From an uncultured Acetobacterium sp. (GTDB lineage: Bacteria > Bacillota > Clostridia > Eubacteriales > Eubacteriaceae), in contig NZ_OY760905.1 of the NCBI RefSeq assembly GCF_963664135.1, positions 3,622,736-3,686,735 on the forward strand: a DNA stretch of 64,000 bases, written 5' to 3'. A program made the translations under genes and the position numbers. The notes beneath the pieces are model-generated. The model had not been told where the DNA came from. It searched no databases and was given only the letters and a program-made list of their open reading frames with translations. Below are positions 37,606 to 40,838 of the stretch, in pieces. Every line of letters begins with the position of its first letter. The first letter of the stretch is position 1.

Positions 37606-37634
37606 TTGACAGACAAAAAATGTGATGATACCAT
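37606..37634 (+). promoter_or_regulatory. Promoter of the sensory hydrogenase operon
   Basis: TTGACA, 17 bases, TACCAT with TGA before the -10 (extended). It lies inside the longer upstream reading frame, so transcripts would start near 37641 and support ATG 37669 as the first start. Confidence 0.6.
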
Positions 37635-37668
37635 GAAACAACTAGAATATTTTAAAGAGGAATATGTG

Positions 37669-37911
37669 ATGAAGACAATAAGAGTATGTGTTGGCAGTTC
37701 CTGTCATGTGAATGGATCTTATAAGGTAGTTCAAGCATTAAATCAGATCATTGAACAGCGGGGACTTAAGAATGATGTTGAATTGGTCGGATCATTTTGC
37801 ATGGGAAAATGCACAGAGGGGGTTGCTGTCGAATGTGATGACATCATCTATGCCGTTTCAGCTGAAAATGCGGAAGAAATTTTCGAAAAAATATGGGGGA
37901 AAACTAATTGA
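37669..37911 (+). CDS. Thioredoxin-like [2Fe-2S] ferredoxin (NuoE C-terminal type)
   Basis: 80 residues from ATG 37669, which has GAGG 8 bases upstream and fits the family N-terminus MKTIRVCVGSSCH; the open frame reaches back to 37555 but that part is not ferredoxin-like. Four cysteines, C7, C12, C44 and C48 (C-x4-C...C-x3-C), match the thioredoxin-like [2Fe-2S] fold found in NuoE, HydC and HndA. It overlaps the next gene by four bases. It is likely the electron partner of the hydrogenase-like protein downstream. Confidence 0.87.
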   Translation: MKTIRVCVGSSCHVNGSYKVVQALNQIIEQRGLKNDVELVGSFCMGKCTEGVAVECDDIIYAVSAENAEEIFEKIWGKTN

Positions 37912-39611
37912 GTATCATCAATTTTTCAAAAGAGAAATGTCGTAATTGTTATAAATGTATTCGGAATTGTCCGGTCAAGGCGATTAAGTTAAAGGACAAG
38001 CATGCTCAAATTATCCAATCGATGTGTATTGGCTGTGGTATTTGTATTGCCACCTGTCCCCATAATGCTAAAGAAATTCACAGTGATGTCAAAACAATCA
38101 AGGAATGGCTAAAAACAGAACAGGTCGTTTTGAGCTTATCCGCTGTTTTTCCGACGGCTTATTACCTGGATCATCCCAGACAATATCTGGGGATTCTGCG
38201 GGAACTGGGATTTGAGATCATTGAAGAAACATCAATTGGTGCGGAAATTGTGGCGAATGCCTATTCCAAAGAGTATTACAGCGATAAAAAGTTTGTGATT
38301 TCCTCAGCCTGTGCGGGGATTAAAAATCTGATTGAAATCTACTATCCCCAGTATGTATCGTCGCTGAGCCGGGAAGTGTCGCCGATGATTGCGCATGGAA
38401 AAATTTTGCGGGAAAAATACCCGAATGCAAAAATCGTTTATGCCGGGTCCTGTCTGGCAAAGAAAATGGAAGTGCATGACAAGGATGTCCGCGGTGTCAT
38501 TGATGGCGTGCTAACTTTTGATGAAATTGATGCCTGGATCAAAGAAGAAAATATTATTCCCCAAAAAATGCCGGCGGAAGATTTCAATGCCATCGGAACC
38601 GATACGGGACGGCTCTATCCGATAACCGGTGGACTGGCTAGGAATAGTGTCGAAAATCTGGATGGCAGCCGGAAAATTCTGCGCATTGATGGGGTTAAAA
38701 ACTGTATGCAGTTTTTAGATGAAATACATCAGTTGGATAAAAAATACTGGATTGAAATGAATACCTGTGAAGAGGGCTGTGTTAATGGACCTGGTAATCT
38801 GCACAGTCCTTTATCTAAATATGAAAAAGTCGAAATGCTCCAAACGTATATTGATATGAACAGTAAAAAACAGCCTAACGAAGCGATTCCTGAAATTGAT
38901 ACCAAACGCTCGTTCCATAAACGGCCGGTTCATCATTTGGGGGAAGTACCGGAAGAAGAAATTGTAAATATTCTGAATCAAATGTCAAAATTCACCGAAC
39001 GGGATGAGCTCAATTGTGGTACCTGCGGTTATGAAACCTGTCGGGATAAGGCTAGAGCTGTTTATTGGAATATGGCGGAACTGGATATGTGTCTGCCATT
39101 GATTTCCAGTAAGAGCGAAGCCATTTCAAATCTGATTATCACCACCACACCCAACGCCATTGCAGTACTGGATAAAAAGTTCAGGATCATTGAGTTCAAC
39201 GCTGCAGCTGAACGGCTCTTTAATATGAAACGGGAGGACGTGATGCGTTACAATTTCATCGATGCCCTGGATTATAATCCGTTTAAGAAGTTAAACTATG
39301 AGAAGAATTATATTTATACTGGAAAAGGCCATTATGAACGGGAGAACCGAACGTTTATGGAAATCTTGACTTATATTCCTGAACAGGAATTATATATGGG
39401 TATTTTTATCGATATTACCAAACAGGAAAAACAGGAACAGGACTTGCTGAAGATGCAGGAGGAAACCCTGAAGATGGCGCAGCGAGTTATTGACAAACAA
39501 ATGCGGGTTGCTCATGAAATCGCCGGATTGCTGGGAGAAACAACGGCTGAAACCAAGGTGACCTTAACCAAACTCCAGAAAGTTGTGACCAGTCGGGAGG
39601 TTGAACTTTAA
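37908..39611 (+). CDS. Putative sensory [FeFe]-hydrogenase with Fe-S and PAS domains (HydS, group C type)
   Basis: 567 residues from TTG 37908. Order: two [4Fe-4S] ferredoxin sites (C11/14/17/21; C40/43/46/50); an H-cluster domain (about 70-330) with ligands C135 in SSACAG, C182 in GSCLAKKMEV, and C287/C291 in NTCEEGC; an Fe-S motif CGTCGYETC...C (C370/373/378/395); a PAS domain (about 408-505); and a helical tail (508-567) with AHEIAGLLGETTAETK. In catalytic enzymes L1 is T-S-C-C-P; here the proton-relay Cys is Ala134, as in sensory members. Likely role: sense H2 or redox state and signal through PAS to the phosphatase encoded one base on. A catalytic role is unlikely but not excluded. Confidence 0.85.
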   Translation: MSIINFSKEKCRNCYKCIRNCPVKAIKLKDKHAQIIQSMCIGCGICIATCPHNAKEIHSDVKTIKEWLKTEQVVLSLSAVFPTAYYLDHPRQYLGILRELGFEIIEETSIGAEIVANAYSKEYYSDKKFVISSACAGIKNLIEIYYPQYVSSLSREVSPMIAHGKILREKYPNAKIVYAGSCLAKKMEVHDKDVRGVIDGVLTFDEIDAWIKEENIIPQKMPAEDFNAIGTDTGRLYPITGGLARNSVENLDGSRKILRIDGVKNCMQFLDEIHQLDKKYWIEMNTCEEGCVNGPGNLHSPLSKYEKVEMLQTYIDMNSKKQPNEAIPEIDTKRSFHKRPVHHLGEVPEEEIVNILNQMSKFTERDELNCGTCGYETCRDKARAVYWNMAELDMCLPLISSKSEAISNLIITTTPNAIAVLDKKFRIIEFNAAAERLFNMKREDVMRYNFIDALDYNPFKKLNYEKNYIYTGKGHYERENRTFMEILTYIPEQELYMGIFIDITKQEKQEQDLLKMQEETLKMAQRVIDKQMRVAHEIAGLLGETTAETKVTLTKLQKVVTSREVEL

Positions 39612-40774
39612 TGCCTTTATTTATGGATATTGCCAGTGATAGTGTCAATAAGGTTCATGAGGAGCTTTGCGGCGATAATGTTGAAGTCCGGATTAATGAC
39701 GAAAGCGTCATTGTGGTGCTGGCTGATGGTTTGGGGAGTGGCGTCAAGGCTAATATTCTGGCAACCCTGACATCTACCATTGCGGCAACCATGCTGGAAG
39801 AAAAAATGGGGATTATGGATGTGCTGGAGACACTTGAGGCAACCTTACCAAAATGCAGTGTCCGGAAGCTGGCCTATTCCACCTTTACCATTGTTCAGGT
39901 TTTCAGAAACCGGTTGGCTTACATTCTTGAATTCGACAATCCACCTTTGGTGTTTATCCGAGATGGCGAGATTATTGAACTGGATCGTCAGGCAATCGAA
40001 TTTCAGGGTAAATCGGTTTATGAGACCACCATGGAAATTGAAAAAGGCGATATTATGGCTTTTTTTAGTGATGGTGTGATACACGCCGGGATCGGTAATT
40101 TTTTGAATTTTGGATGGCAGTGGGAAGAGGCTGCTGATTATTTATTGGCGCGATCTTACGAGAATAAAAAAGCCAAGGATATTTCCATGGCCCTGGTGGA
40201 TACCTGTTATAATCTTTATGGTGAAGAACCGGGGGATGATACCACCGTCGCAGTGATTAAGGTTGAAGAACGGAAATATGTCACAATGTTTTCCGGCCCC
40301 CCCCTGGATATGAGTAAAGATGCTGAAATTAAGCGGTTAATGGAACGGGGACGAGGCAAAAAGGTTATTTGTGGCGGCACTGCCGCTAACATTATTGCCA
40401 GAGAATTTGGGGAAGAAATTGTGGTTGATTTTAAAACCATGTCGGAAAGAGTACCCCCGATTGCCCGGATCAAAGGCATCGATTTAGTCACCGAAGGGGT
40501 GCTGACCATGCAGGAAACCATTCGCATCTGTGATGATTATATTCATAACCGGGTTGGCCGGGAAATATTTCAGGAAAATAACGGTGCATCAATGTTGGCT
40601 AACCTGTTATTCAATGAAGCCACTACCATAGATCTGATCATGGGGAATTCAATCAATCCGGCTCATCAAAACCCGGATTTTCCCGAAGAACTCACAACTA
40701 AATGGCGGGTAACCCAAAAACTCATTGATATGTTGCGTTACTTTAACAAAGAAGTAAACATCATTTATGTTTAA
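39611..40774 (+). CDS. SpoIIE-type PP2C serine phosphatase with unusual C-terminal extension
   Basis: 387 residues; its ATG shares one base with the preceding stop (TAATG), with GGGAGG upstream, so the two are translated together. Residues 1-220 are a SpoIIE/RsbU-type PP2C domain with metal Asp in CGDN (D22), ADGLGSG (D39), FFSDGV (D154) and PGDDTT (D209/D210). Residues 221-387 form an extension without a family I recognise; it has CGGTAANIIARE and a helix-rich end. The phosphatase would remove phosphate from a Ser/Thr on a target such as an anti-sigma antagonist, but no STAS or anti-sigma gene is nearby. Confidence 0.85.
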   Translation: MPLFMDIASDSVNKVHEELCGDNVEVRINDESVIVVLADGLGSGVKANILATLTSTIAATMLEEKMGIMDVLETLEATLPKCSVRKLAYSTFTIVQVFRNRLAYILEFDNPPLVFIRDGEIIELDRQAIEFQGKSVYETTMEIEKGDIMAFFSDGVIHAGIGNFLNFGWQWEEAADYLLARSYENKKAKDISMALVDTCYNLYGEEPGDDTTVAVIKVEERKYVTMFSGPPLDMSKDAEIKRLMERGRGKKVICGGTAANIIAREFGEEIVVDFKTMSERVPPIARIKGIDLVTEGVLTMQETIRICDDYIHNRVGREIFQENNGASMLANLLFNEATTIDLIMGNSINPAHQNPDFPEELTTKWRVTQKLIDMLRYFNKEVNIIYV

Positions 40775-40804: not shown

Positions 40805-40838
40805 GAAGCGGAACACCCCGGTGAGGGTGTTCCGCTTC
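40805..40838. terminator. Hairpin between the sensory operon and the APC permease
   Basis: A perfect 14-base stem, GAAGCGGAACACCC and its complement, around six bases. The genes converge here; the T-run is poor. Confidence 0.75.

Follow-up and report, generated by a model that had tools for sequence, protein, structure and literature searches.

A three-gene operon of an uncultured Acetobacterium sp. is predicted, with a probability that we put at roughly 0.8, to be a group C3 (phosphatase-linked) sensory [FeFe]-hydrogenase cassette with the gene order of hfsABC and to sense H2. The operon lies in a stretch of 64,000 nucleotides, referred to here as the window (G000:C1:3622736-3686735 of a one-contig genome of 4,084,676 bases). 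Its three genes are on the same strand (+) with overlapping ends, a ferredoxin gene running to 37911 being followed by the gene of the hydrogenase HydS (37908-39611) and by that of a phosphatase (39611-40774). The gene order, the motifs, the clade of HydS and its near-obligate pairing with the phosphatase were all observed directly in this work. Three overlapping genes for a ferredoxin, a HydS-like hydrogenase and a phosphatase had been proposed in a first-pass annotation made from the DNA letters, and their presence was confirmed by the open reading frames and by Pfam matches.

Genes and domains of the cassette

HydS was aligned with its counterparts from 32 of 40 fetched loci (alignment A4, 33 rows with the window) and the phosphatase with those from 27 of the 40 (alignment A5, 28 rows with the window). 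The features of the cassette are the following.

37669-37911, + strand: thioredoxin-like [2Fe-2S] ferredoxin, 80 amino acids, in the hfsA position (PF01257, E 5.7e-7)
37908-39611, + strand: HydS, 567 amino acids, assigned to the group C [FeFe]-hydrogenases, with a TTG start overlapping the ferredoxin stop
37920-38069, + strand: two N-terminal [4Fe-4S] ferredoxin motifs of HydS, C11 C14 C17 C21 and C40 C43 C46 C50 (two matches to Fer4 families)
38124-38792, + strand: H-domain, amino acids 73-295 (PF02906, E 1.9e-44), with H-cluster Cys codons at 38310, 38451, 38766 and 38778
39009-39098, + strand: C-terminal Fe-S motif Cx2Cx4Cx16C, C370 C373 C378 C395 (PF04060, amino acids 368-397; 33/33 rows)
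39108-39422, + strand: PAS region, Pfam core at amino acids 410-455 (PF00989, E 2.5e-7 in the window; 33/33 rows)
39462-39572, + strand: putative C-terminal output helix, amino acids 519-555, the best kept of seven HydS regions compared
39611-40774, + strand: SpoIIE/PP2C-type serine phosphatase, 387 amino acids, in the hfsC position (PF07228, E 1.4e-17, amino acids 30-218)
40265-40771, + strand: C-terminal domain of the phosphatase, amino acids 219-387, of no family, with invariant GPP, CGG, P, L, TEG, T, G, N, Q and P (alignment A6)

The four H-cluster cysteines of HydS (C135, C182, C287 and C291, equated by motif to C300, C355, C499 and C503 of CpI) were invariant in 33/33 rows. The sequence of elements read earlier from the letters, namely all four ligands followed by an Fe-S motif and a PAS domain, was borne out by the matches to PF02906, PF04060 and PAS. 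At the position of CpI C299 the window protein has Ala, the rows being divided between Cys (12), Ala (10), Ser (10) and Phe (1); at M353 it has Gly, as found in 32/33 rows, and at M497 it has Asn, as found in 17/33. The first two residues correspond to A131 and G177 of the Thermotoga maritima protein TmHydS (PMC10055695, PMC8163306), whereas the Asn stands against S267 of TmHydS, a comparison made by published residues and not by alignment. These changes of the pocket (Ala for C299, Gly for M353 and Asn for M497), together with Ser for P354, are in favour of a HydS that has lost its H-cluster and serves the phosphatase as a structural scaffold, but the four cysteines and the equivalents of K358 and E361 are retained in the window protein and HydF is encoded in the genome, and we regard such a loss as very improbable.

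The most conserved part of HydS was not the H-domain but the C-terminal helix. With region bounds set after the alignment had been viewed, the mean majority fraction over the 33 rows was 0.82 for this helix (amino acids 519-555), compared to 0.65 for the C-terminal Fe-S motif, 0.64 for the N-terminal ferredoxin part, 0.53 for the H-domain, 0.49 for PAS, 0.44 for the linker and 0.39 for the tail. Greatest conservation in the helix presumed to contact a partner fits with the near-obligate phosphatase neighbour described below. By eye the helix also resembles a histidine-kinase dimerisation helix; this identity was rejected, as no such family was among the 25 of 33 families listed for the 33 rows, and the His of the window protein is replaced by Gln in 29/33.

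Gene 1 had been read as a thioredoxin-like [2Fe-2S] ferredoxin, in agreement with its PF01257 match and with four cysteines (C7, C12, C44 and C48) that were invariant in 16 aligned rows (alignment A10). By blastp, at least 30 of 39 loci have a small ferredoxin directly 5' of HydS; at L112 it was overlooked by the gene caller, being present at locus L055 of the same genome. Within HydS itself, seven of the eight N-terminal cluster cysteines were retained in 32-33 of the 33 rows, and C43 in 27/33. Both features, together with the rise in ethanol reported for hfsA as well as for hfsB deletions (PMC5707799), would suit a low-activity catalytic hydrogenase or a ferredoxin-redox sensor, in which HydS, by way of the partner [2Fe-2S] ferredoxin and its own Fe-S clusters, reads the ferredoxin pool or the cell potential, and not H2, to control the phosphatase. 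We consider this unlikely, since the H-cluster ligands, needless for a plain redox sensor, are retained in every row, and since H2 turnover is reported for both TmHydS and TamHydS (PMC10055695, PMC8163306).

The identification of gene 3 as a SpoIIE-type phosphatase is supported by the PF07228 match, by a profile search that matched SpoIIE and RsbX structures, and by D22, D39, D154, D209 and D210, which were invariant in 28/28 rows and among which we take the metal-binding residues to be. As judged from the aligned sequences, the HydS-linked phosphatase has in its C-terminal domain a conserved part without a family name: Pfam searches with the 28 rows of this domain returned single weak matches only (best E 0.011). 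The sole profile match in the PDB, a phosphoheptose isomerase (E 0.14), was rejected.

Pairing of HydS with the phosphatase and class assignment

In a class sample of 391 genomes, searched with cut-offs of E <= 1e-80 for HydS and E <= 1e-25 for the phosphatase profile, HydS gave 114 matches in 112 genomes and the phosphatase 115 matches in 111 genomes. The phosphatase was found directly 3' (-60 to 400 nucleotides) of 109/114 HydS genes, and HydS directly 5' of 109 of the 115 phosphatases. The five HydS exceptions were three long proteins (G037, G056 and G093), the first of a tandem pair (G040) and one with a phosphatase elsewhere on the same contig (G096), whereas the six phosphatase exceptions included three partial matches (G248, G345 and G042), one near a contig start (G108) and two real exceptions (G096 and G121).

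The long HydS proteins, of 877-881 amino acids in open frames of 881-891 (L202-L204 in G093, G056 and G037, respectively), lacked a downstream phosphatase match; as a guess, their extra C-terminal part could be a fused output domain, similar to group C1.

A similar linkage was seen at the level of the phylum, where 119 of 398 sampled genomes have the phosphatase. HydS was upstream in all 30 phosphatase loci returned, that of the window included, and the phosphatase was within 1.5 kb downstream in 28 of 30 HydS loci. At five additional loci, among those with the most divergent phosphatases, HydS directly precedes the phosphatase in four, and at the fifth (L200) the phosphatase was not called by the gene caller and its match starts 75 bases 3' of HydS. 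Among ten related loci, the complete trio is present in eight, the exceptions being L016, which begins within HydS, and L017, in which the HydS frame is broken; a 387-amino-acid phosphatase lies 3' of HydS in all ten. Given the whole trio in 8/10 related loci and the phosphatase beside 109/114 HydS genes in the class sample, the association is beyond chance.

In L017 (6001-7681, from a metagenome-assembled genome (MAG) of Eubacteriaceae), the reading frame of HydS is interrupted at the PAS region and that of the phosphatase is intact, consistent with an assembly error or with decay.

HydS of the window is 98% identical to that of an A. woodii MAG, 90% to that of A. wieringae, 76-77% to those of A. 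paludosum, A. tundrae and A. fimetarium and 61% to that of a Eubacteriaceae MAG. In a first tree (33 HydS, 20 group D-like, 6 A-like and 2 B-like rows), HydS formed one clade, distinct from groups A, B and D, with support of 96/96, and groups D and A were each supported at 100/100. A second, quicker tree (22 C, 14 D, 15 A-type and 2 B rows) agreed, with 99 for C and 100 for D. Two of 12 fetched group B loci and 6 or 15 group A-type rows passed the motif filter used for these trees. The tree check suggested in the first-pass annotation thus holds in one respect, HydS not being placed among non-hydrogenase Fe-S proteins, but it is limited in another, as only hydrogenase-type rows were in the trees. 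The earlier proposal of a sensory group C [FeFe]-hydrogenase paired with a phosphatase is supported jointly by domain order, cysteine motifs, trees and phosphatase linkage.

Such a cassette has published counterparts. HydDB describes its group C3 as putatively phosphatase-linked (PMC5037454), and the C3 or M2f subclass has, as in the window, two N-terminal clusters, an H-domain, a C-terminal four-cysteine motif, PAS and an adjacent Ser/Thr phosphatase (PMC5037454, PMC8163306); the window protein differs in the Ser for Pro in L2 and in having no hydrogenase gene nearby, with no difference in kind seen. The hfsABCD operon of Thermoanaerobacterium shares the order of a small protein, a PAS hydrogenase (HfsB) and a serine-phosphatase homologue (HfsC) (PMC11837493, PMC5707799), whereas the window operon is without hfsD. 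In addition, HfsA is said in PMC11837493 to align with no known protein, unlike the thioredoxin-like ferredoxin of the window, a difference taken from descriptions only. The Ruminococcus albus HydS cluster also combines a group C hydrogenase with PAS and a serine/threonine phosphatase (PMC6776011), but it shares a transcript with genes for a ferredoxin hydrogenase and for an alcohol/aldehyde dehydrogenase, whereas the window operon stands alone: no other hydrogenase-subunit-like open reading frame was found within six genes of it. In 25 of 39 loci such a frame (longer than 400 amino acids, with a blastp match to HydS, and possibly HydA or HydB) lies at most six genes away.

Group D HydS (the TamHydS type) is the nearest clade in both trees and has the same C-terminal motif, but it is without PAS, which the window HydS has. 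The genome encodes its own protein of this kind, a second predicted sensor of 447 amino acids without PAS (G000:C1 1517608-1518948; L004, L205), and PF02906 gave seven matches genome-wide. Unlike the window operon, this group D-like gene lies beside HydABC, HATPase-like proteins and a DRTGG-like protein whose match (E 7.7e-5) does not reach the Pfam cut-off. The class had been called little characterised at first reading; this is too strong in that HydDB names C3 and that a response in R. albus and deletions of hfsA-hfsD are published (PMC5037454, PMC6776011, PMC5707799), and it stands in that the class is hardly understood. The Acetobacterium operon adds a member to this known class, with H2 sensing as a putative function.

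The cassette is flanked by two elements.

37606-37634, + strand: promoter-like site, TTGACA and TACCAT with a 17-nucleotide spacer and TG preceding the second hexamer (10/12 matches)
40805-40838, no strand assigned: inverted repeat separating the operon from the convergent gene that follows, resembling a terminator on the - strand

An identical TTGACA and a TANNAT at equal spacing were present in 10/10 aligned loci, the window counted. The promoter-like site rests on this conservation and not on the promoter scan, as the scan found 10 sites overall against 9.5 expected. The start of gene 1 had been placed at 37606, which is wrong: this position is a TTG within TTGACA, i.e. in the -35 box of the promoter-like site, and the ferredoxin begins at the ATG at 37669, the start conserved in aligned related loci. 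On the 3' side of the phosphatase, the position where hfsD would be expected is taken by a convergent gene, permease-like by eye.

A TnpB-like protein and an RNA in relatives

A protein of about 510 amino acids was encoded 3' of the phosphatase in 5 of 40 fetched neighbourhoods. With a cut-off of E <= 1e-20, this TnpB-like protein was found in 14/391 class genomes (L151-L164) as open frames of 490-565 amino acids (e.g. L118 11958-13571), and gave no match in G000, the genome of the window. In all 14 cases the gene was on the same strand and downstream of the HydS-phosphatase pair, within 112 nucleotides in 11 and at 2.8-3.3 kb in three; at L116 an AdhE-like gene lies in between. Five of five members matched the Cas12f1-like TNB family (PF07282), at least one above the cut-off, and five of five matched guided_TnpB, the one score shown being below the NCBIfam cut-off; the best PDB match, among TnpB/Cas12f chains, was a TnpB chain (E 6.5e-8). 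The RuvC site is degenerate at the positions that we take, by motif, to be its residues: the first Asp is absent in 14/14 and the Glu in 13/14 (G086 keeps it), with D or E as the third residue.

Directly 3' of the TnpB-like gene there is a conserved RNA in 14/14 loci (at L118, 13576-13685, + strand), ending in AGCTATCT. In an alignment of 13 of the 14 loci, a pseudoknot helix drawn from these same sequences pairs in 13/13, and two of its pairs show changes of both partners. When the complete structure was compared with 500 shuffles, none reached its covariation score or its percentage of paired positions, 14 reached its number of pairs with both partners changed and 453 its number of further pair types. 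A model built from the 13 loci found the RNA in the 14 protein-bearing genomes and in none of six HydS genomes without the protein, with a weak second match in G155. Nine of the 14 RNA loci were compared with Rfam, of which no family reached its gathering score.

The sequence after the RNA scaffold varies between species like a guide and, by eye, enters a terminator-like stem in most. Ten guide/offset trials in five 19-kb neighbourhoods gave match counts about those of shuffled guides, a longest seed of 9 nucleotides and no convincing target; in two trials the count was 3.5-fold and 4-fold the shuffled mean, the seeds being no longer than 8 nucleotides. TnpB/Cas12f kinship and the loss of RuvC residues are features shared with TldRs, nuclease-dead TnpB regulators already known in fliC- and csrA-linked forms (PMC13418256). 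No link between TnpB and a hydrogenase was found among the titles and abstract starts of the open-access papers listed by a direct search, bioRxiv being outside that list, and the link in these relatives of an H2-sensor cassette to a disabled TnpB-like protein and an RNA may be new.

Taken together, the HydS-phosphatase pair could tentatively be seen as a portable H2-to-phosphosignal module in which the helix and the orphan domain form a dedicated contact and the outputs are lineage-specific: possibly an H2-gated, RNA-guided, TnpB-derived and nuclease-dead transcription regulator in 14/391 genomes, and a remote target in Acetobacterium. We hold this wider proposal to be doubtful.

A conserved leader-like sequence was seen downstream of the TnpB-like gene at L155 and L158-L162. 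It is reminiscent of the yybP-ykoY manganese riboswitch, with no Rfam gathering score reached in L155, L158 and L161.

Predicted signalling and possible targets

As proposed here for the Acetobacterium cassette, H2 would react at a slow, tuned H-cluster lacking the proton-relay Cys and having Gly in place of Met353. The redox change would then pass along the Fe-S clusters, reaching the C-terminal one and the PAS domain, from which the conserved C-terminal helix of HydS would relay the signal to the phosphatase, the small [2Fe-2S] ferredoxin being the probable electron partner of HydS. The phosphatase would dephosphorylate a Ser/Thr phosphoprotein, with a partner-switch logic like that of SpoIIE, RsbU and RsbX. 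The Acetobacterium operon stands alone, whereas in many relatives hydrogenase genes lie nearby.

The sign of the response may be approached by analogy. In Thermoanaerobacterium, deletion of hfsA or hfsB increased the ethanol yield about 1.8-fold and the adhE transcript two- to threefold, whereas deletion of hfsC and/or hfsD left a wild-type ethanol yield, wild-type C and D being required for the high yield (PMC5707799). A simple interpretation of ours would have A and B restraining C. In R. albus, a cluster of eight genes that includes the group C hydrogenase was 111-fold down in co-culture with the H2-consuming Wolinella, and the authors of that study propose H2 sensing (PMC6776011). If both the hfs genetics and the R. 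albus response hold, H2 would lift the restraint: without H2 the ferredoxin-HydS pair might restrain the phosphatase, and H2 might release it, a sign to which we give no better than even chances.

Several observations weigh against the assignment of the cassette as an H2 sensor or against its proposed sign. Loss of the Cys at C299 is no mark of the family, because Cys is found there in 12/33 rows, and in L2 the window HydS has a Ser, common to the genus, in place of the Pro of all 32 other rows. The split of C plus D from A plus B in the first tree was supported at 91/83 only, and both trees were made of hydrogenase-type rows with group labels given by motifs and architecture and no named group C protein (TmHydS absent). 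AlphaFold models of HydS (predicted local distance difference test, pLDDT, 36) and of the phosphatase (pLDDT 45) were too poor for the pocket or the interface. The sign, moreover, is drawn from other species, and the absence of hfsD from the Acetobacterium operon weakens it. PMC5707799 itself describes H2 sensing by hfsB as not yet verified; for R. albus it cites a proposal of Zheng et al. in which the output is a Ser/Thr kinase and not a phosphatase. Restoring hfsD alone to a delta-hfsABCD strain gave an ethanol profile like that of delta-hfsB (PMC11837493); HfsC is therefore dispensable there, which weakens the proposed sign and lowers our confidence in the cassette as read here. Finally, in group D the C-terminal cluster is reported to have a negligible catalytic effect, said to challenge earlier ideas on signal transduction (PMC13104023).

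With regard to the target of the phosphatase, SpoIIE-type phosphatases, as known from SpoIIE, RsbU and RsbX, act on STAS phosphoproteins, and partner-switch proteins do exist in G000. A stressosome-like cluster at 143-145 kb (143060-144871) has two STAS proteins, one HATPase and one SpoIIE-type phosphatase; a STAS/HATPase pair resembling SpoIIAA/AB is found at 1.336 Mb and a lone STAS protein at 1.421 Mb. Genome-wide there were five SpoIIE matches, four STAS matches and 24 HATPase_c_2 matches at E <= 0.01, eight of these over the cut-off. The target might be one of these partner-switch proteins or, at 1.519 Mb, the HATPase that neighbours the group D sensor, a suggestion that we make with reserve, as none of these genes is near the operon, where the only match to the three families is its own phosphatase.

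No study of HydS in Acetobacterium was found among the open-access papers listed, bioRxiv being outside that list. The way in which H2 pressure determines the products of fermentation has long been asked about, and it would be testable in this H2-growing genus, with its two predicted [FeFe] H2 sensors. The putative output helix, the orphan domain of the phosphatase and the pair of TnpB-like protein and RNA in the relatives may provide handles on the missing output side.

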